From positions 1 to 33,343 of the forward strand of contig JAFWFT010000098.1 of assembly GCA_017515505.1 (NCBI GenBank): a stretch of DNA of 33,343 bases, written 5' to 3'. Source of the stretch: Solobacterium sp. (GTDB lineage Bacteria; Bacillota_I; Bacilli_A; Erysipelotrichales; Erysipelotrichaceae). How positions within the stretch are numbered: the first letter of the stretch is position 1; every line of letters starts with the position of its first letter. Both the position numbers and the translations under genes were made by a program. Below the pieces are notes generated by a model. The model was not told where the DNA came from and searched no databases. It worked only from the letters and a program-made list of their open reading frames with translations. Positions 84 to 10,213 of this stretch are shown in pieces.

Positions 84-1472
84 CTAGAATCCAAAATATT
101 CTTTCGCATTATTATAAGAAACATCTTCTACAATTTTTCTTAGTTTATTTTCATCATTTGGGTATCTGCCTTGGTTTACTAAATCCGCTAAGAAAACACA
201 TAATACGCGTCTGAAGTATTCATGTCTTGCGTAACTTGTAAAACTTCTAGAATCCGTCAACATTCCCACAAAGCCAGCTAAATATCCTTGGGCCGCTAAA
301 CTTTGTAGTTGAGCGTACATCCCATCATAATTATCATTAAACCACCAAGCACTACCATGTTGGAGTTTTGATTTCGTTGGACCTTCTTGGAAACAACCCA
401 TCACCGTATCAATTGCGGTATTATCATTTGGGTTTAAAGAGTAGAGGATTGTTTTAGGTAAGAAACCTTCTTGATCACATAGATTTAAGAAATCCGCCAA
501 TTGATCAATACTTCCACTATCCCCAATACTATCGCCTCCTGCATCAACACCATAATAACGTAGTAAATGTATACGATTATCACGTTTCACACCATAGTGT
601 AGTTGTGATACCCAATCGTTTGTGTGATACCATTTATGGAGTTCTTTTAAGAGTGCAGTTTTAAATTGTTCAATTTCATTCAAAGATAGTGTATCTTCAT
701 TGAAACGTTTCCGAACAATACTCTTTATCTCTTCTTCTGTATATGGAACACATGGAACATGTGCGATACCATGATCTGCGACACGACATTCATTTCCTTT
801 AAAGAATTCAAAGCGACGATGTAGTGCTTCTAATAATGTTTCATAAGAAGTAATTGGCATATTCGATACATCTTCTAAACGTTTGATATAATCCATCCAA
901 TCTTTCTTTTCGATATTTAAGACTTTATCTGGACGCCAAGCAGGTAAAACTTTAAAACCTAAATCTTGTGTACGCATGAGACGATGATATTCTAAATCAT
1001 CAATTGGATCATCGGTTGTACAAATGATTTTTACATTGGATTCTCGTATGAGTTTTTGGGCAGATAGATCTTTAATTTTATTATTTGCGATTTGCCATAC
1101 TTCTTCTGCTGTTGTTTCATCTAAAATACCTTCATATCCAAAATAATTCTTTAGTTCCATATGGCACCATTCATATAGTGGATTTCCAATCGCTAACGAT
1201 AAAGCTTTCGCCCACATCAAGAACTTTTCTTTATCATCTTTATTACCTGTAATATACGCTTCATCAATTCCATAAGAACGCATTAAACGCCATTTATAAT
1301 GATCTCCTTTTAACCAAATCTCTGTAATATTATTGAATTTAATATCTTCATAGATTTCTTTCGGAGATAAATGACAATGATAATCAATAATTGGCATTTC
1401 TTTCGCATACTGAAATAACCGTTTTGAAACAGCGTCATTTAATAAATAATCATCTTTTATAAATACATCCAT
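84..1472 (-). CDS. uxaC: Glucuronate (uronate) isomerase
   Basis: The 462-residue protein isomerises D-glucuronate to D-fructuronate (and galacturonate to tagaturonate), the first cytosolic step of the Ashwell uronate pathway. It has the full usual length of the UxaC family, a divergent member of the amidohydrolase fold. The early DYHCH motif (H32, H34) is the usual start of the metal site, and the later RADHGIAHVP-like and GGDSIGDSGS segments are in family order. The ATG at 1472 has a strong ribosome binding site (AAGGAGG, 1481-1487) that overlaps the stop codon of the upstream hydrolase, which implies translational coupling. It is part of the minus-strand operon that begins near 9228. Function is confident; which uronate is used in vivo is not visible. 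Confidence 0.95.
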   Translation of the reverse strand: MDVFIKDDYLLNDAVSKRLFQYAKEMPIIDYHCHLSPKEIYEDIKFNNITEIWLKGDHYKWRLMRSYGIDEAYITGNKDDKEKFLMWAKALSLAIGNPLYEWCHMELKNYFGYEGILDETTAEEVWQIANNKIKDLSAQKLIRESNVKIICTTDDPIDDLEYHRLMRTQDLGFKVLPAWRPDKVLNIEKKDWMDYIKRLEDVSNMPITSYETLLEALHRRFEFFKGNECRVADHGIAHVPCVPYTEEEIKSIVRKRFNEDTLSLNEIEQFKTALLKELHKWYHTNDWVSQLHYGVKRDNRIHLLRYYGVDAGGDSIGDSGSIDQLADFLNLCDQEGFLPKTILYSLNPNDNTAIDTVMGCFQEGPTKSKLQHGSAWWFNDNYDGMYAQLQSLAAQGYLAGFVGMLTDSRSFTSYARHEYFRRVLCVFLADLVNQGRYPNDENKLRKIVEDVSYNNAKEYFGF

Positions 1473-1485
1473 TGTTTATACCTCC

Positions 1486-2460
1486 TTACTTTAATAAAGC
1501 TTTGAGTTTTTGATCCATTTCCTCTTGGGTTGGCGTTTGTACAATACCCCATTGATAAACACGTTGTAGTGGCACACTGCGAATATGACTATCAGTTTTC
1601 GCACGGAATGCGATATCTGGTAAATACTCTTCTATAAGTGTCCAAGCTTCTTCATGATACATCAAAGCGCCAATTCGACTTCGAATACTTAATTCCTTTA
1701 AATCTTCTTCAATATCACCTAACAATAAAGATGTGTCTCTTCCTATGTGATTGATGAAGGAAATCGCATGTGGTAACCACGTTGCGTAATCCTTATTCAC
1801 AACACCACTTTCCTTCGTTCCTAAAGATAATCCATGATCTCCCGTTACATAAACATGAAGTTCATATGGAACTTTCTTTTCTGCATATGCTTTTGCTAAC
1901 TCTAAGGATTCCATAGAAGGTACTGTACTATCCCCTTGGCAAAGGAACAGAAATGCAGGTGGAGTATCTTCTGTAATCGCATGGATTAGATTTCTTTGTT
2001 CAATACCTAAATGGCGCATTGTTTCTTCACGATATACGCCATAACCTAAAATGAAACAATATGGTTTCACTCCACCGACTACATAACTTGAAAACGCTAA
2101 GTTTGCACCTGCACTAAATCCAACAAGTCCTATTTGATCTTTTCGAATATGAAGTTCTTCTCCATGTTCTTGTAGATATGCAAAAGCATCTTGCACATCT
2201 ATGATTGCATGTTCATAAACATGTTCAACATCTACTTTTGGAGATCCAAATAAACCATCGATTGTACTGTATTCCAAAACAAAGGTTTGAAAACCTTCTT
2301 CAAAAAAAGCTTTCGCAACAGGCTCTCCTTCTCCCGGGGCGCAATAACGATATGCGCCCCCAGGAAGAATTAGAATTGCATTTCTTTCCTTTTCATCTTC
2401 ATGAAGATAGGATGTTAATGTTGCTTCATGAGAAGATAACGACATCTTAGTGATTATCAT
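1486..2460 (-). CDS. Alpha/beta hydrolase (esterase/lipase-like) with C-terminal extension
   Basis: This 324-residue protein has the alpha/beta-hydrolase fold of the bacterial acetyl-xylan-esterase/BD-FAE type. The oxyanion-hole segment LPGGAY is at 33-38, the nucleophile motif GFSAG has S116, and the probable acid and base are D177 (QGDSTVP) and H209 (GDHGLSLG). There is no signal peptide, so it acts in the cytoplasm. About 85 extra residues after position 240 lie beyond the hydrolase core and form a charged, mostly helical tail that I do not recognise. It starts 2 bases after the GH3 stop codon and its stop overlaps the uxaC ribosome binding site. A role in removing acetyl or other ester groups from the imported uronate sugar is inference from the operon. 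No clear Shine-Dalgarno is seen, so translation may depend on coupling to the GH3 gene. Confidence 0.82.
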   Translation of the reverse strand: MIITKMSLSSHEATLTSYLHEDEKERNAILILPGGAYRYCAPGEGEPVAKAFFEEGFQTFVLEYSTIDGLFGSPKVDVEHVYEHAIIDVQDAFAYLQEHGEELHIRKDQIGLVGFSAGANLAFSSYVVGGVKPYCFILGYGVYREETMRHLGIEQRNLIHAITEDTPPAFLFLCQGDSTVPSMESLELAKAYAEKKVPYELHVYVTGDHGLSLGTKESGVVNKDYATWLPHAISFINHIGRDTSLLLGDIEEDLKELSIRSRIGALMYHEEAWTLIEEYLPDIAFRAKTDSHIRSVPLQRVYQWGIVQTPTQEEMDQKLKALLK

Positions 2461-2462
2461 AA

Positions 2463-4193
2463 CTATAATTTAGTTTCCCAACGACCACACCATACAAGAT
2501 CATTTGCATGACCTTTAAATTCAGATTGTCCAATCATCTTTTCAACACTAGCACGAATATATTCTCTTTCAGAACAATATGCATTTATAAATGTTTTTAG
2601 TTGTGGAACATCATATAAGTGATTGGTGTAATTTAAGGAAATGCCAATGGTTGGAACTTCATGAATATACCAAGGAATTTCATTGGAATGTGCAATTGTC
2701 CATTTCAAACGCACATTATTCTCTTGCGCATATCCAACCATATTTATTACAAGTAATACTATATCATATCTATTCTTGAAATCTTCAGCAGATTCCTTCT
2801 CTTCTAAGACAGACCATAAGTCTACAGTTCCAGCACTTTCTCTTTCGACTTCATAGAAATTCTTATAGAGATCAACTTCAAATCCTACTTTTTCAAGTTC
2901 TTCTACCATGATTTTCTTAGCCTTATCAGTAGGAGCCTTAATGGAAGCAGGCGCAGATTCAATGAAATATAAGCGCACGCGTTTCTTTTCTTTTGGATTT
3001 AATGGTAATAAATGTTGAGTGTCTTTTACGAGTGTAATGGATTCATTTGCGCTTTCATATGCCATTTCATGGTGCTTTTCACAACCAACTACATCCAATC
3101 CGCTTTCATCTGGGAATTGTAAATGATTAAGTCCAAGTTTTGCTTTTAAACCAAGAATACGATGTAACGCATCATCTAATCGTTCTTGTGTGATTAAACC
3201 ACTTCGAATTCCTTCTCTCATATATTCGAAATCTTCATCCGCATCATTGTAGTAAAGATACATATCACATCCAGCAGCGATAGCCGCAGGTACTTGATAT
3301 GATCTAGGAGCCATACAAGACATTCCTCCCATATGAGATGCATCGGTAGTAATAAGACCATTAAAACCTAATTCTCCACGTAAAACATCTGTCAGTAATG
3401 TTTTTGACATGGTTGCGGGCATGATCTCTTCATCTTTAATATCTGGATTGTATTTTCTCTCTAAAGCAGGTTGACATATATGTCCTATCATCATAGATTC
3501 AACACCTTCATCAATGAGTTCTTTATAAACTCGACCAAATGTGTTTTCCCATTCTTCAACGCTTAAGTCATTACAACCTAAGTTTAAATGTTGATCTCTT
3601 TCTTCAGAACCATCACCTGGAAAGTGTTTCGCACAACATGCTAATCCAATTCTCTTCATTTCATCCATATAGGCTTTTGAATTCATGATGACATTATCTG
3701 GATCATCTCCAAATGCACGGTTATTCACAATGGTATTACGCCAATTGGATACAATATCGCAGATTGGTGCAAAGGTCCAATTACAACCAACAGCCTTCGC
3801 TTCTGTACCACCTGCTCTTGCCATATTACGTACTGGAATGTCATTAGGTGCTGCTCCACAAGCATGTTCTGGAGCAATTGTTGTACCACCAATGATGGAC
3901 TTTCCTGCACCATTTTCAATGTTTGCAGCAATTAATAATGGTACTTTTGAATATTGTTGGAATAAACGATTCTGATTCCAAGTTTGATGTGTATTTGCTC
4001 CTTGCCATCTAAGCCCACCTGGATGATATTTTTCAACAATATTCTTAATACGCTCTTCGTTATCTCTATGAATATTCATCACAATAAACAATTGTCCTAT
4101 TTTTTCATCTTCACTCATAGAAGCAATTGTGTCTTCTACCCATTTAATTTGTTCTTCATTCAAATAGAATGGCTTTTTTGTTAAATCAACCAT
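2463..4193 (-). CDS. Glycoside hydrolase family 3 protein (beta-glycosidase / NagZ-like)
   Basis: The 576-residue protein has the GH3 N-terminal TIM barrel (about 10-350) followed by an alpha/beta C-terminal domain. The NagZ-like loop KHFPGDG (189-195) with D200 and H202 matches the family's KHFPGHG...DSH motif, including the His used as general acid/base. The nucleophile is probably D284 in TTDASHMGG. There is no signal peptide, so it would cleave a substrate already imported by the ABC transporter upstream. Ribosome binding site AAAGGAG lies 8 bases before the ATG. The NagZ-like loop suggests a beta-N-acetylhexosaminidase ancestry, but the uronate operon context argues for another specificity, such as releasing a uronic acid from a glycoside. 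Exact substrate is unknown. Confidence 0.85.
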   Translation of the reverse strand: MVDLTKKPFYLNEEQIKWVEDTIASMSEDEKIGQLFIVMNIHRDNEERIKNIVEKYHPGGLRWQGANTHQTWNQNRLFQQYSKVPLLIAANIENGAGKSIIGGTTIAPEHACGAAPNDIPVRNMARAGGTEAKAVGCNWTFAPICDIVSNWRNTIVNNRAFGDDPDNVIMNSKAYMDEMKRIGLACCAKHFPGDGSEERDQHLNLGCNDLSVEEWENTFGRVYKELIDEGVESMMIGHICQPALERKYNPDIKDEEIMPATMSKTLLTDVLRGELGFNGLITTDASHMGGMSCMAPRSYQVPAAIAAGCDMYLYYNDADEDFEYMREGIRSGLITQERLDDALHRILGLKAKLGLNHLQFPDESGLDVVGCEKHHEMAYESANESITLVKDTQHLLPLNPKEKKRVRLYFIESAPASIKAPTDKAKKIMVEELEKVGFEVDLYKNFYEVERESAGTVDLWSVLEEKESAEDFKNRYDIVLLVINMVGYAQENNVRLKWTIAHSNEIPWYIHEVPTIGISLNYTNHLYDVPQLKTFINAYCSEREYIRASVEKMIGQSEFKGHANDLVWCGRWETKL

Positions 4194-4256: not shown

Positions 4257-5279
4257 TTAAGCAACTGCTTCAGCGGGTGAATTCTTCTTCATTTGATGAG
4301 CTAATTCAATCCGAGCTTTTTCAGCTGCACGATTCTTAGCAAAGTGTTCATTTGCTAGGAATACTAAGAAGCCCACAAACAATAACATATTGAATACACT
4401 TGTGTTTGCTTCTGATAGTTCTAATTGTGTTAAACCATAAGAGAAGATTTTAATTGTTAATGCTGCAACTATGATACCGATTGCAGAATTGCTCTTACGA
4501 CCAATATAATTACCAAGAATCATAGAGAACATATTTGCAGCAACTACACCATTACTTGTTAAACCAAGTGATGCAGCCATTTGTGTTGTATAAGAGACAT
4601 CAATAACGCCTGCGATACATACAAGTGCACCCGCAAATGTATAACATAATACTGTATTCTTAAAGATATTAATTCCACTATTTTGCGCAATCAATTGTGA
4701 TCCTTGAATCGCTTTTAATTCATAACCAAATCTGGTTTTATTCATTAAGAGTGTCACAATTATTCCAACAATTACTACAACCCCAATAATGAATGCTGTA
4801 TCACTTAGAATTGCCATTCCATTTTTACCAAATAAGTTTAATCCTTTTCCGCCAGAAACTACATATGGGAACACTTCCCAAATAAGCCCCATACCAATAC
4901 CTAATACCATTGGCGGAACACGTAACCAAATAAACATGATTCCAGTTAAGAACCCAAATAGTAAACCAAAGGCAATCGCAAAGATTAATAACCATATACC
5001 AGAAAGGTTAAGATTTAAAGCAATAACACCACCAATAATTGTACCTGCTAAACGTTGTGCACCTAAGGATAAATCAAAACGACCACTTGTTAAGTTGAAT
5101 GATAATGCAAATGCAATCATTGCAGATACACCAGCATTACGAATTAATGTCTTAACATCTAACATTGAATTTAATACATGCTTTTGTACAAGTGCCATCG
5201 TGATGATTTCCATAATCAGATACATACCTATTGGAAAGGCGATGGTGAATAATATGTTTTTTAGTCTCTCATTTTTCAT
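4257..5279 (-). CDS. Sugar ABC transporter permease (RbsC-like, second copy)
   Basis: This is an integral membrane permease of the BPD_transp_2 (ribose/xylose/galactose) family, about 340 residues and rich in hydrophobic helices. Family-typical segments include SGRFDLSLGAQ near the second helix and GNYIGRKSNSAIG late in the protein. The start is better placed at the ATG at 5279 than at 5285: the sequence GGGAG lies 6 bases from the former and directly against the latter. It pairs with the other permease at 6683-7669, giving a heterodimeric channel, as expected for an importer with two different permeases. It lies after the binding-protein gene, separated by a strong hairpin. Substrate specificity cannot be read from sequence. 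Confidence 0.88.
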   Translation of the reverse strand: MKNERLKNILFTIAFPIGMYLIMEIITMALVQKHVLNSMLDVKTLIRNAGVSAMIAFALSFNLTSGRFDLSLGAQRLAGTIIGGVIALNLNLSGIWLLIFAIAFGLLFGFLTGIMFIWLRVPPMVLGIGMGLIWEVFPYVVSGGKGLNLFGKNGMAILSDTAFIIGVVVIVGIIVTLLMNKTRFGYELKAIQGSQLIAQNSGINIFKNTVLCYTFAGALVCIAGVIDVSYTTQMAASLGLTSNGVVAANMFSMILGNYIGRKSNSAIGIIVAALTIKIFSYGLTQLELSEANTSVFNMLLFVGFLVFLANEHFAKNRAAEKARIELAHQMKKNSPAEAVA

Positions 5280-5311
5280 ATTCATCTCCCATGGAGTTTT
5301 TACTACCTAAT

Positions 5312-5355: not shown

Positions 5356-6636
5356 TTATTTTACTTTCTTACTAATAACTGCGTTTACATCAGAAACTTC
5401 TTTTAATAAGTTTGCTAAATCGCTTGAACTGATTGAACCGATATATTTATCAAGATCATCAGAGTTGATAACATATGTATCATGACCAGTATCTAATTTA
5501 CCAATGCCAGCATATGTTTCAGCATTCATACAAGCCCATGGAGAAACACCTAATAATACAGCATTCCCACCATCTTTAACAGTTTCGCCATTGCCAGCTA
5601 AACCTTGATAAATTTCAATTGCATTAACTGCATTTGCAACGTTTAATGGGTTGATAATTGCAGCATTTAAAATTGAATTTCCAAAGCTATCTTTTGTGTT
5701 GAAACCTGTTTCTGTTTGCGCTTCGATACTAGCTGTACCAATAATACGTACATCTTTATTGAGAGATTTTTCAACTTCATCAATTGCAGTTGTGAATGCA
5801 GCATAGCTGAACACAGCTGCGAATGTATCATAGTTACCAGTTTGTAATTGCGCTTGGATTGTAGGTAATGCAGCACTTGGATCACGTCCTGGATAGATGT
5901 AGATATTTACATCATCACGGCCAGTAGCAACTGGTCCTGGATCTTGTGTATTGATGATTTCATCAATTGATTTTTCGAACTTAAGATCATATGTTTCTTC
6001 AAATGCTTTTAACATGCCTTCTACAGAATAGTAGTGAGAAGCAGCACCTTGTCCGATTGCACCACCAACAGCAGCACCAGAGAAGATAACGATTGAATGA
6101 GGTTCACCATCACCAATTAAATCTTTTAAAGCTGTCTTATATGCTTCACCAAATTCTAATGCACCAGCACCACAGTGACCTAAGTTATGACTGAGAGCTT
6201 TTACATCATCATTTAGAGCAGAGTTTTGTGTTGTAAACCACATACCCCATTCTTCTGCTTTACGAGCACCTTGTGCAACTGCATCATTTTGTGTAACTAA
6301 GTTAATTAAGCCAACACATCCTGCAGCATATGCTTGATCCATAAAGTCAACAAGACCATTAGCATCTGATAATTTTTCAGAGAACATGAATTCCATATTT
6401 AATTTTGGTCCAAGTTCTTCCGTGAAATATTTCTTTTGAATTTCCCAAGTTTCACCTTCGTGAACGGTTGCTACACCAATTTTTCTTGGCGCTTCATTAG
6501 AAGCAGGAGCCGCTTCTGATGTTTCTGTTGCACTTCCAGTATTGGATTCAGTAGCTGTACTTGTAGCATTTTGTCCACACGCAACTAATGAACCAACTAG
6601 GAATAACGCAACGAATGATTTAAATAGTTTTTTCAT
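5356..6636 (-). CDS. Sugar ABC transporter substrate-binding lipoprotein
   Basis: The 426-residue protein begins with a lipoprotein signal peptide: KK at 2-3, a hydrophobic stretch, and lipobox LVAC with the lipidated Cys at position 20. A low-complexity Ser/Thr/Ala/Glu linker (about 21-50) follows, typical of Gram-positive lipoproteins. The rest looks like the periplasmic binding protein fold of sugar transporters (type 1, ribose-like), for example IGVATVHEGETW near the start of the mature domain. It is longer than the usual ribose-type proteins (about 300-350). Ribosome binding site AGGAGG is close to the ATG. It lies between the two permease genes, as the receptor that captures the substrate outside the membrane. 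Ligand unknown; a uronate-containing sugar is inferred from context. Confidence 0.9.
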   Translation of the reverse strand: MKKLFKSFVALFLVGSLVACGQNATSTATESNTGSATETSEAAPASNEAPRKIGVATVHEGETWEIQKKYFTEELGPKLNMEFMFSEKLSDANGLVDFMDQAYAAGCVGLINLVTQNDAVAQGARKAEEWGMWFTTQNSALNDDVKALSHNLGHCGAGALEFGEAYKTALKDLIGDGEPHSIVIFSGAAVGGAIGQGAASHYYSVEGMLKAFEETYDLKFEKSIDEIINTQDPGPVATGRDDVNIYIYPGRDPSAALPTIQAQLQTGNYDTFAAVFSYAAFTTAIDEVEKSLNKDVRIIGTASIEAQTETGFNTKDSFGNSILNAAIINPLNVANAVNAIEIYQGLAGNGETVKDGGNAVLLGVSPWACMNAETYAGIGKLDTGHDTYVINSDDLDKYIGSISSSDLANLLKEVSDVNAVISKKVK

Positions 6637-6682: not shown

Positions 6683-7669
6683 TTATCCTTCCGGAGCCGG
6701 TAATCCCTTAGGACGTTGTTGAGCAGTCATGATTAGAATTAAGAAGATAATTCCACGTACTGCTTGGATGATGGTACTATCAACCCCAATCATTAATAAC
6801 CCTTGGTTTAATACACAAACAGTAAGGGCACCGATAATACCTGTATATGCGAAACTCTTAGAGCCTCCAAAGATACTCATACCGCCTAATACAATCGCCA
6901 ACATGACATCTGTATTTAATGTGGATAAGGTTTGTGTTCCTACAGAGCCACCACGCACAATCACTAGTAATGCTCCAATACCACTGCCGATTCCCGCTAT
7001 GATAAACGCGATTAAGATGTATTTACTCTTTTGAATACCGGTTTGTTCAGCACAGAGATTGTTTGTCCCAATCATTTTTAGTGAACGTCCAATCGCTGTA
7101 AAGTGGAACAAGATAATTGCCAAGATGAAGAATAGTACAAACGCAATGACTGAGAAATTATTACGTGTTAATGAATCAATCAGTTCAAATGGCAACGATA
7201 CAGTAGATCCACCTAGAATAGATTCTTGAATCGCTTTTAGTAATGTCATCATAACGATGGTGACATACATAACACGAACATTGAACAATGTGGATAAGAG
7301 TGCAGATAACGCCATAATGATGACACCCAATAAGATTGAAGATACCACCATTAATACGAATGAATTTGTCGCATTATAGACCATGCCTGCTAGTGTTGCG
7401 ACTAATACAGTTGTCGCACCCATTGCCAAGTTAACGTTTCCTGAAGCAAAGATGAAACTTGCGCCTGTCGCTACTGTTGCGACAATTAGTGCTTGTTCAA
7501 ATATCATCTTTAGAATAGAAGGCGTTGCGAATCTTCCTCCTGTTTGACTTGTAAAGAAGAGTACAAGAAGAACTAAGAAGATAATAGGTAATGTATGCAC
7601 AAACCATCTTTGTTCTGCTAGACGCTTAACTTTTGTCAAAAATGACTTCTCTTGTTTACTTTCTGACAT
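6683..7669 (-). CDS. Sugar ABC transporter permease (RbsC-like, first copy)
   Basis: This 328-residue polytopic membrane protein of the BPD_transp_2 family has the typical segments SGNVNLAMGA (early), the loop AEQTGIQKSKY (coupling to the ATPase) and GGMSIFGGSKS near the end. The ATG at 7669 has ribosome binding site AGGAGG, which overlaps the TAG stop codon (7678-7680) of the upstream ATPase fragment, so the two are translationally coupled. It is probably the partner of the permease at 4257-5279. The protein appears complete. Its substrate cannot be told from sequence. Confidence 0.9.
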   Translation of the reverse strand: MSESKQEKSFLTKVKRLAEQRWFVHTLPIIFLVLLVLFFTSQTGGRFATPSILKMIFEQALIVATVATGASFIFASGNVNLAMGATTVLVATLAGMVYNATNSFVLMVVSSILLGVIIMALSALLSTLFNVRVMYVTIVMMTLLKAIQESILGGSTVSLPFELIDSLTRNNFSVIAFVLFFILAIILFHFTAIGRSLKMIGTNNLCAEQTGIQKSKYILIAFIIAGIGSGIGALLVIVRGGSVGTQTLSTLNTDVMLAIVLGGMSIFGGSKSFAYTGIIGALTVCVLNQGLLMIGVDSTIIQAVRGIIFLILIMTAQQRPKGLPAPEG

Positions 7670-7677
7670 AAGGCCTC

Positions 7678-8244
7678 CTAAATCATGTAGTTGATCAAAT
7701 CTTGCTCGGATAAGCCGTTGACGCGTAATCTCTCCGCTGTCACCTTGCCATCTTTCATCATAAGAATTCGATCACACATTCCAATTAATTCTGTTAATTC
7801 TTCTGAAATTAGAAGTATTGATTTCCCCGATTTCTTCATTTCATTCATCAATTGATACATCGCTGCTTTAACACCAACATCAATACCACGTGTTGGGCAG
7901 TCTAGAATCAATATCTGTGCATCTGATGCAATCCATTTGCCAAATACAACCTTTTGTTTATTACCACCAGATAAGGTATTAACTTTATAGTTCTTGCCTG
8001 CGCATTTAATCGATAATTCACGTATTTGTTCATCAACATAAGCTGCTTCTTTTTTGAAAGAGATGATACCTTTAAATAATTCATTTGCTTTATAACCCGT
8101 ACTCGCAATATTCTCTGCGATGGTTGCGGATAAACCTAACGATTCAGTATCACGATTCTTAGAAACATAACCCATACGTTTCGCTATTGCTGTCTTTGGA
8201 TTATTGATAACTGTTCCATCTGCAACAGTTACTTTTCCATCCAC
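7678..8244 (-). CDS. Sugar ABC transporter ATPase, C-terminal fragment (frameshifted RbsA-like)
   Basis: This reading frame (188 residues from a GTG at 8244-8242) encodes only the second half of the second nucleotide-binding domain of an RbsA/MglA-type ATPase. It has the signature LSGGN (91-95) and a Walker B-like LDCPTRG (114-120). The usual catalytic Glu is Cys (C116), and the switch-His position is Ser in LLISEEL. The domain's Walker A region is in the preceding reading frame. The GTG shares one base with the TAG stop of that frame (TAGTG), so reinitiation is conceivable. Adding one A to the AAAA run at 8248-8251 would fuse both frames with family-typical spacing (...FGVEK-VVDGKV...). It is therefore best read as part of one gene, 7678-9179, broken by a frameshift. 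Confidence 0.85.
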   Translation of the reverse strand: MDGKVTVADGTVINNPKTAIAKRMGYVSKNRDTESLGLSATIAENIASTGYKANELFKGIISFKKEAAYVDEQIRELSIKCAGKNYKVNTLSGGNKQKVVFGKWIASDAQILILDCPTRGIDVGVKAAMYQLMNEMKKSGKSILLISEELTELIGMCDRILMMKDGKVTAERLRVNGLSEQDLINYMI

Positions 8245-9179
8245 TACTTTTCAACGCCAAAGAGTGCTCTACCTAATGTGTGCATACCACAGTGTGATAA
8301 TCCACCAATTCCAAGTATTTCACCTTTATGTAGTTCTAAATCAAAACACAATAGATCTTCCATCGTTGTGATACAGTCTGCACGAAGTACAACTTCATCA
8401 CTATAACCTTCCATATCACTACGATAGTAATCGCCTTCTAATTCTCTACCAACCATCATCTTGCGGATTGTGTTTGGTTCGTAATCTTTTTTATCTAACG
8501 TTCCGATGATGACTCCATCACGTAAGACAGTTAACTTATCGCAATGTTGCATCATTTCATCTAAGTCATGTGAAATAAATAGAACAACTTTATTCTCTTC
8601 TTTCATCTTTTTTAAAACACGATATAAGAATTCACGTCCTTCAAAAGATAATGCTGTAGATGTTTCATCTACAATCAACAAATCCGGTTTCCAATATAAA
8701 CACTTCGCAATTTCAACGATCTTACGCGCTTGCATATCAAGTGTTGAAACTCTTTGATTTGCTTTAAACATATCTAGGTTTAATTCATCTAATAAATCCT
8801 GTGCAGCTTTTTCCATCTTCCCTTTATCAACAAATAAACCTTTTTGAAATAAATTCTCATGTCCTAAGAAGATATTTTCTGCGACAGTAATATTTGGAAT
8901 TGTACCTGCTTCTTGTACAATCATTCCAATTCCATGTTCTTGTGCTTCTAGCATGCTTGAAGGTTTCCAAGGTTGTCCTAGATAAGTCATCTCACCTTTT
9001 GTTGCCGGTTGCATACCCGCAATAATGGAACTTACCGTTGATTTACCACTACCATTTTCACCAATCAATCCATAGACGTTCCCTCTTTCAAGAGAAAATG
9101 ACACATCGTTTAACGCAACTGTAACACCGAAGTTTTTATCCATATGTTTTACTTCGAGTATTGTATTTTGGTCTGTCAT
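8244..9179 (-). CDS. Sugar ABC transporter ATPase, N-terminal fragment (frameshifted RbsA-like)
   Basis: This frame encodes the complete first nucleotide-binding domain and the start of the second of an RbsA/MglA-type importer ATPase. Walker A is GENGSGKST (40-48), Q-loop Gln is Q89, Walker B is LLIVDE (167-172), and the switch His is H204. The signature is degenerate: STLDMQ at 145-150 where LSxGQ is expected. The second domain starts near 262 and has the family's degenerate Walker A (GLSHCGMHTL). The frame ends at a TAG (8244-8246) in the middle of that domain. I choose the ATG at 9179 (MTDQNTILEV) because AAAGGAG lies 7-8 bases upstream. The longer frame, starting at 9230, would run through a cre site and has no ribosome binding site. 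It is the first gene of the operon. Confidence 0.87.
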   Translation of the reverse strand: MTDQNTILEVKHMDKNFGVTVALNDVSFSLERGNVYGLIGENGSGKSTVSSIIAGMQPATKGEMTYLGQPWKPSSMLEAQEHGIGMIVQEAGTIPNITVAENIFLGHENLFQKGLFVDKGKMEKAAQDLLDELNLDMFKANQRVSTLDMQARKIVEIAKCLYWKPDLLIVDETSTALSFEGREFLYRVLKKMKEENKVVLFISHDLDEMMQHCDKLTVLRDGVIIGTLDKKDYEPNTIRKMMVGRELEGDYYRSDMEGYSDEVVLRADCITTMEDLLCFDLELHKGEILGIGGLSHCGMHTLGRALFGVEK

Positions 9180-9207
9180 GTCATCACTCCTTTCTTCTCG
9201 AAAATTA

Positions 9208-9221
9208 TGAAAGCGTTTTCT
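9208..9221. promoter_or_regulatory. CcpA cre site (perfect consensus match)
   Basis: TGAAAGCGTTTTCT matches the catabolite-responsive element consensus TGWAANCGNTNWCW at all positions. It lies between the predicted transcription start (about 9228) and the first ATG (9179) of the minus-strand operon, a usual position for CcpA-HPr(Ser-P) roadblock repression. It implies that the uronate transport operon is shut off when preferred sugars are present. Confidence 0.85.
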
Positions 9222-9234
9222 TTTTTTCAACCTA

Positions 9235-9263
9235 AATATAACAGTGAGTAAAAAACATGTCTA
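9235..9263 (-). promoter_or_regulatory. Promoter of the sugar-acid ABC/uxaC operon
   Basis: On the minus strand a -35 box TAGACA (9263-9258, 5/6 match) and a -10 box TATATT (9240-9235, 5/6 match) are separated by exactly 17 bases. This predicts a transcription start near 9228 and a leader of about 49 bases. The -35 overlaps the first TATTGCAAT repeat, the placement expected for activation by an AraC-family protein. Confidence 0.7.
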
Positions 9264-9401
9264 TTGCAATGCTTTTAATGTTATATTGCAATTCTTGTAC
9301 TCTATTAAAATGGATTATTCGACTTCTTGTTGAACTATATTCTTCTAAATATTGCTTTTTATTTATATGATATTGCAATTCTTATATTGTTATATTGCAT
9401 T
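9262..9401 (+). repeat. Direct-repeat operator array (TATTGCAAT), probable AraC-family binding sites
   Basis: Five same-orientation copies of TATTGCAAT or close variants start at 9262, 9284, 9350 (TATTGCTTT), 9371 and 9393 (TATTGCATT). Spacing is 22, 66, 21 and 22 bases, about two helical turns or a multiple. Copies at 9284 and 9371 share the longer ATATTGCAATTCTT. The pair at 9262/9284 abuts the -35 of the minus-strand operon and the triplet lies over the araC-family gene's own promoter region. This is the layout expected for an activator that also autoregulates. Confidence 0.7.
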
Positions 9402-9421
9402 TTTTCTATTATGATGAATAT

Positions 9422-10213
9422 ATGGAATTTGATGTACGTTCAGGTAACTATACATTTAAACATTCGTTAACCCCAATCCCAGATATGGATGAAACGCGGT
9501 TTAAGGAACATTATCATACGATGTATGAATTGTTGTATTTCATTAAGGGAGATGCTTCTTTTCGTGTTAAAGATACAACCTATTCGTTAAAGTCAGGAGA
9601 TCTATTAGTTGTACAACCTGGAGAACATCATAATTTAATTCTTCGTTCGCAAAGTCCATACGAAAGAATGGTATTACGTTTTGATCCTGTGGATGTCAAT
9701 CCTGCTTTAAGACGTTACTTACCAAGTTTAGATAGTGTCTATTTCATTCAGAATACACCACTTAGTGCAGAGTTTTCTCATTTAGATTCTCATTATTCAT
9801 CAGTTCGAAAAGATATGATCCTATCAACCTTTATTTCTTCTTTAAACATTATCTTAGCTTACTTAGTGTCTTCGGATGAGCTCATCCAACAAGCAGATCT
9901 TGTTAATAAGGACATTAAACCGATTATAGATTATATTTCAAATCACTTAGCGGATATTCAATCCATTGATGATTTATCAAATGCTCTACATTTATCAAAA
10001 TCATCCATCTATAAAATCTTTCATAAACAATTTGATACACCAATCATGTCTTATATTCGTACACAGAAGATTATGTTAGCACGTACAATGTTAAATGAAG
10101 GTACACCTGCTACTGAGGTCGCAATCCGTTTAGGTTTTAATCACTATTCTTCCTTCTATCGTGATTACTATAAAGTATTCAAAGAAACCCCAAGTGGCAA
10201 AAACAAAGACTAA
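9422..10213 (+). CDS. AraC-family transcriptional regulator
   Basis: The protein (263 residues from the ATG at 9422) has an N-terminal cupin sensor domain. Its EHYHTMYELLYFIKG segment and the SGDLLVVQPGEHH turn are typical of AraC proteins that bind a sugar ligand. A C-terminal AraC/XylS DNA-binding domain with two helix-turn-helix motifs follows (about 165-263), including IQSIDDLSNALHLSKSSIYK and the signature GFNHYSSFYRDYYKVF. A TTG at 9395 could extend it by nine codons but lies inside the operator array. Neither start has a clear Shine-Dalgarno. The gene is divergent from the uronate transport operon, so it is probably its activator. The ligand is likely the imported sugar or a pathway intermediate, which is inference. 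Confidence 0.9.
   Translation: MEFDVRSGNYTFKHSLTPIPDMDETRFKEHYHTMYELLYFIKGDASFRVKDTTYSLKSGDLLVVQPGEHHNLILRSQSPYERMVLRFDPVDVNPALRRYLPSLDSVYFIQNTPLSAEFSHLDSHYSSVRKDMILSTFISSLNIILAYLVSSDELIQQADLVNKDIKPIIDYISNHLADIQSIDDLSNALHLSKSSIYKIFHKQFDTPIMSYIRTQKIMLARTMLNEGTPATEVAIRLGFNHYSSFYRDYYKVFKETPSGKNKD

Follow-up and report, generated by a model that had tools for sequence, protein, structure and literature searches.

The direct repeats that lie between an AraC-type gene and a sugar-use operon in a Solobacterium-type bacterium are very probably the operators of that adjacent regulator, which would activate the operon for glucuronate use and probably lower the expression of its own gene. The stretch of DNA analyzed, called here the window, comprises 33,343 nucleotides. 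The repeats, their spacing, their offset from the promoters, their orientation and their conservation can be read directly in the window and in the related genomes.

Genes of the Window and the Regulator Protein

A closely spaced run of genes occupies the minus strand of the window, from a sugar ABC transporter ATPase (7678..9230, likely ATG at 9179) through an ABC transporter permease (6683..7669), the probable substrate-binding lipoprotein of the transporter (5356..6636), another permease (4257..5285), a GH3 glycoside hydrolase (2463..4193) and an esterase-like alpha/beta hydrolase (1486..2460) to the glucuronate isomerase UxaC (84..1472), and the AraC-type regulator gene (9422..10213, 263 aa) lies on the plus strand. 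Both permeases, the GH3 enzyme, the hydrolase, UxaC and the regulator were assigned by domain profiles, and the lipoprotein by its position and conservation in the operon and a weak lipoprotein match. The ATPase gene is split at position 8244 into frames of 328 and 188 aa, and its orthologues are intact, with about 500 aa; this frameshift, located at a short A-run, may be a genuine mutation or an error of the assembly.

The regulator had been described from the sequence as AraC-type, and the domain searches agree, with an N-terminal AraC-type cupin ligand domain (AraC_binding, PF02311, E 3.6e-14) and a C-terminal pair of helix-turn-helix motifs (HTH_18, PF12833, E 9.7e-17, score over the curated cut-off). 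A Foldseek search with a model of the protein, of moderate confidence (mean pLDDT 69), matched AraC (2arc) and BgaR. The protein thus belongs to the cupin-bearing, sugar-responsive subgroup of the AraC/XylS family. Orthologues, taken as proteins with 50% identity or more, were found in 6 of the 272 genomes of the family, all of them of one genus, and none further among the 315 genomes of the order. The start MEFDVR is invariant in all six orthologues, which supports the ATG at 9422.

Five Repeats in the Intergenic Region

As had been claimed for five copies in the same orientation, TATTGC repeats on one strand start at window positions 9262, 9284, 9350, 9371 and 9393, and all coordinates and successive spacings (22, 66, 21 and 22) proved correct. 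Three of the five (9262, 9284 and 9371) carry the exact 9-mer TATTGCAAT, from which the repeat at 9393 (TATTGCATT) differs by one mismatch and that at 9350 (TATTGCTTT) by two. A 38-nt block shows 84% identity between 9262-9299 and 9371-9408. It is the clustering and the lag, not the count of the 9-mer, that set the repeats apart: TATTGCAAT with one mismatch is not enriched over the whole window (22 observed vs 25.6 expected), and the 22-bp self-similarity of the intergenic region was matched by 0.1% of dinucleotide shuffles, or by 0.75% if any lag from 18 to 26 was allowed.

The 33-kb window was also scanned for pairs at 21 or 22 bp with a matrix built from 12 sites, none of them from the window or from its nearest relative, G034. 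The three best pairs were 9369-9408, 9260-9299 and 9348-9386, with scores of 22.4, 21.7 and 17.9; the first two exceed the maximum of 60 Markov surrogates (20.3), and the third lies below it. In the window's own genome, where the regulon was sought through a pattern search of an assembly of 1.26 Mb (71% complete), the extended word gave a single other match, within a coding gene.

Conservation and Extent of the Regulon

The conservation of the repeats beside orthologous operons, a point raised in the earlier note, was found: six genomes (that of the window, G034, G004, G025, G031 and G024) have a 22-bp pair in front of the orthologous ABC operon. Pairs at 22 bp also precede uxuA-uxuB-sulfatase in G004, G025 and G031 and araC in the window, G034 and G021, and a 21-bp pair precedes an amidohydrolase gene in G024. 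A 22-bp pair accompanies every regulator orthologue, next to either araC or the ABC operon; this link between motif and regulator is backed by only six regulator genes, three of them (G004, G025 and G031) from close relatives. The sites are present in G024, in whose 70%-complete assembly the regulator was not found.

In G034, three genes separate araC from the ABC operon, and both promoters retain their pair, about 3.8 kb apart. The intervening genes (L066, 7078-11667) encode a sulfatase, an anaerobic sulfatase maturase and an amidohydrolase, and a sulfatase gene also follows uxuA-uxuB in G004 and G025; together these genes give a hint that a sulfated uronide could be the substrate. A pair before uxaC in G034 (score 13.9) was too weak to count, and searches of G000, G034 and G024 gave no uxuA.

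The pattern TTGCAATNTA-N12-TTGCAATNTA with at most one mismatch has five matches in the 272 genomes of the family, all in the regulon, and its backward control has none in the same genomes. With two mismatches, 14 of the 20 matches in the genus fall in the regulon, some of the matches counting one site on both strands. As the pattern was derived from the regulon sites themselves, the informative part is its absence elsewhere. No pair was found at the unrelated uxuA loci of G021, and the motif is absent from the paralogous transporter loci of G008, G017, G039 and G057 (L111-L114), with about 30% identity in the binding protein. In G008, G039 and G057, the contig with the paralogous transporter also carries, close by, a longer AraC-type gene of about 520 aa.

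Geometry of the Target Promoters

The operator pair of the ABC/uxaC operon (9260..9299, minus strand; starts 9262 and 9284, 22 bp apart) overlaps with its inner copy a predicted weak -35 box, TAGACA (9258..9263, minus strand), and the predicted -10 box is TATATT (9235..9240, minus strand; promoter prediction). In all ten target promoters of the window and its relatives, the final T of TGCAAT is also the first base of a poor -35 hexamer (TAGACA, TAGACT, TGTACA, TGTACT, TGTAAT, TGTGAT, TTTGAT, TATGAG or TACTCT), and a -10 box with five of the six consensus bases is also found in 10/10, with a spacer of 17 at the ABC promoters and of 16 at the uxuA and amidohydrolase promoters. No other two neighboring offsets together account for all ten. 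A pair touching the -35 box of the uronate operon had been described in the earlier note as the layout of a class II activator, and both statements hold: the inner repeat abuts or overlaps TAGACA, the offset is the same in the ten promoters, and the -10 box lies 16-17 bp further in. With two half-sites 21-22 bp apart, the inner one at -35 in 10/10, the layout is, as judged from sequence, that of a class II activator.

The same data bear on whether the repeats arose by chance in AT-rich promoter DNA, which the lack of enrichment of the one-mismatch 9-mer across the window and the moderate shuffle significance for the window alone might suggest. Against this, the pair is kept at six ABC operons and three uxuA promoters, the promoter offset is fixed in ten of ten cases, and the window's pairs are picked out by a matrix built on other genomes. 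Chance was discarded on the basis of the conservation and the fixed offset, and its probability is negligible; the repeats are real and, judging by their conservation, functional.

A cre-type (CcpA) box, ATGAAAGCGTTTTCT, lies in the leader of the operon (9207..9221, plus strand), downstream of the predicted transcription start, and matches the CcpA cre consensus perfectly. The same box is found in G034, G004, G031 and G024 and a variant in G025, so that it is kept in 5/6 ABC operons. The operon is thus probably under the control of CcpA, with glucose repression through this box.

Anatomy and Phasing of the Sites

In the sense of the target operons the motif reads RNANNNWTTGCAATRTA. GCAAT is present in 27/27 sites, with a variable mirror arm (T 20/27, A 18/27); the search word contained TGCAAT, and the invariance of GCAAT is partly by construction, which does not apply to the freedom of the mirror arm. 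The invariant core is ATTGC(A), flanked by TAY...TNY. Read in the operon sense, additional conserved columns precede TGCA (-8 R, -6 A), positions +10 to +14 carry little information, and the asymmetric flanking columns are weak, with less than 1 bit each. The near-palindromic 9-mer TATTGCAAT proposed in the earlier note as the unit is therefore not the invariant one: the actual unit is asymmetric, with one constant and one varying arm. Because the site is asymmetric, the copies are true direct repeats, spaced 22 bp throughout except for two pairs at 21 bp.

The 8-mer ATTGCAAT equals its own reverse complement, and each copy could in principle be the palindromic site of another dimeric regulator and not of the AraC protein. 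This reading is very unlikely, as the GCAAT arm is constant in 27/27 sites while the mirror arm varies (a contrast partly due to the bias of the search word), and the pair accompanies the regulator gene and retains its direct-repeat spacing of 21/22 bp.

The steps of 21-22 bp inside the pair and inside the triplet correspond to about two turns, and there the even period on one DNA face that had been suggested stands. It does not extend from pair to triplet, because these distances (66, 87 and 109 bp) amount to 6.3, 8.3 and 10.4 turns at 10.5 bp per turn. The lattice of 3 x 22 read into the 66-bp gap was discarded, since no copy of the repeat occupies the intermediate positions; with its 6.3 turns, the distance appears incidental.

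The araO2-araI arrangement is the case of DNA looping in the AraC system, and five sites in one strand orientation within one intergenic region might point to something similar, with the araC triplet as a distal operator looping to the operon pair 109 bp away. However, this distance of 10.4 turns puts the sites out of phase, a single pair is found there in G004, G025 and G031, and in G034 the pairs lie about 3.8 kb apart. Looping was discarded because the sites are out of helical phase at all three distances (10.4, 8.3 and 6.3 turns) and the arrangement is absent in the relatives, and we regard it as improbable.

The araC Promoter

The operator triplet (9348..9408, minus strand; starts 9350, 9371 and 9393) lies over the araC promoter, where G034 and G021 have kept a pair. 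The candidate -35 box TTGTTA (9387..9392, plus strand) is located between two repeats, and the candidate -10 box TATGAT (9410..9415, plus strand) 6 nt before the ATG. The window, G034 and G021 show a -10-like box 6-7 nt before the araC ATG, with no visible ribosome-binding site, and the remaining orthologues may share it. This proximity suggests that the araC mRNA may be leaderless, a trait that would be conserved among the orthologues.

When scored with a matrix trained on the target promoters, each of the seven sites at araC promoters runs in the opposite sense, relative to its gene, to the sites at target promoters; the margin between orientations is large for six of them and small for one G021 site (14.4 vs 13.9). 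In the window and G034 the sites cover the -35/-10 region, with the innermost repeat within the spacer between the candidate boxes. As the araC sites are reversed and, in these two genomes, lie over -35/-10, the sequences make autorepression of araC likelier than autoactivation. It would not be universal, since G004, G025 and G031 have no second pair over the araC promoter. The autoregulation proposed in the earlier note thus keeps its basis, the triplet covering the araC promoter, and loses the activation it implied there, which reversed sites over the core promoter fit less well than repression.

That the regulator also activates its own gene is unlikely, although the -35 boxes of araC are weak and, in G021, the araC start is 8 bp more distant from the repeat, whose only overlap with the promoter is at the -35 region, so that activation would be possible there. 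Opposed to it are the seven araC-promoter sites, which all read opposite to those at the activated promoters, and the inner repeat inside the -35/-10 spacer in the window and G034.

Discussion

The mechanism we propose, with autorepression as the preferred reading at araC, would proceed as follows. A dimer of the regulator (9422-10213) would bind a pair of direct repeats with a 22-bp period, and its cupin domain, when bound, would presumably carry a ligand, either a uronide or a sugar. From the inner repeat at the weak -35 box, the dimer would recruit RNA polymerase in the class II manner and switch on the operon for the ABC transporter, GH3 enzyme, esterase and UxaC. The same sites turned round over the -35/-10 region of araC would probably limit its expression upon binding, and CcpA would probably add glucose repression through the leader cre box. 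The identity of the binding protein, the activation, the repression and the ligand are in this scheme what we infer from the sequences. Its boldest form, which we put forward tentatively and with some doubt, is that one AraC-type protein uses one asymmetric site in two orientations, forward by the -35 box to activate catabolic operons and reversed over the core promoter to repress its own leaderless gene.

Comparable layouts have been described. XylS at the Pm promoter of the Pseudomonas TOL plasmid binds two direct repeats with TGCA-N6-GGTA boxes (PMC5481539), and its 21-bp period follows from a TGCA-N6-GGNTA-N6 layout (PMC4514859). The common ground is a pair of TGCA-containing direct repeats next to -35, as the site of a dimer; the second box differs, and here the TGCA core is promoter-proximal, the period is 22 bp and a second array lies over the regulator's own promoter. 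The XylS-like order, with TGCA distal and the second box proximal to -35, was not found: the extra conserved positions lie away from the promoter relative to TGCA, so that the box order may be reversed with respect to XylS, and each HTH may contact either box.

MtlR at PmtlE of Pseudomonas fluorescens uses a 22-bp direct repeat, AGTGC-N5-AGTAT-N7, upstream of -35 (PMC4514859); it is likewise an AraC/XylS-type sugar regulator with 22-bp repeats, but with another motif, and it serves mannitol genes, whereas uronate genes are concerned here. In the Firmicute Caldicellulosiruptor bescii, PecR, PecR2, HemR and others, inferred to be activators, have tandem-repeat sites upstream of promoter elements, in a search that used 21- or 32-bp periodicity (PMC8579813), and resemble the present case as local AraC-type carbohydrate regulators with tandem repeats. 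E. coli AraC (araBAD/araC) is likewise encoded divergently from its operon and has a cupin ligand domain, and it combines the class II activation and the autorepression that are proposed here, but here the motif is another one, no sign of in-phase looping was seen, and the local relatives have a single pair.

The earlier note had not recognized the motif as that of a described regulator, and likewise no description of the motif or the regulon was found in the open-access literature searched. The type of control is well known from XylS, MtlR and AraC, and the general knowledge of AraC-type regulation is unchanged by these sites; the motif and its regulon appear undescribed. If the two-orientation arrangement is true, it would be a compact activator/autorepressor made from a single repeated word. 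In G034, each promoter kept its operators even though regulator gene and operon had moved apart. For uncultured gut Solobacterium-type bacteria, in which few regulons have been defined, the sites provide an operator motif and a small regulon for uronate/uronide use, which comprises the ABC transporter, GH3, uxaC, uxuA-uxuB, sulfatase and amidohydrolase genes.
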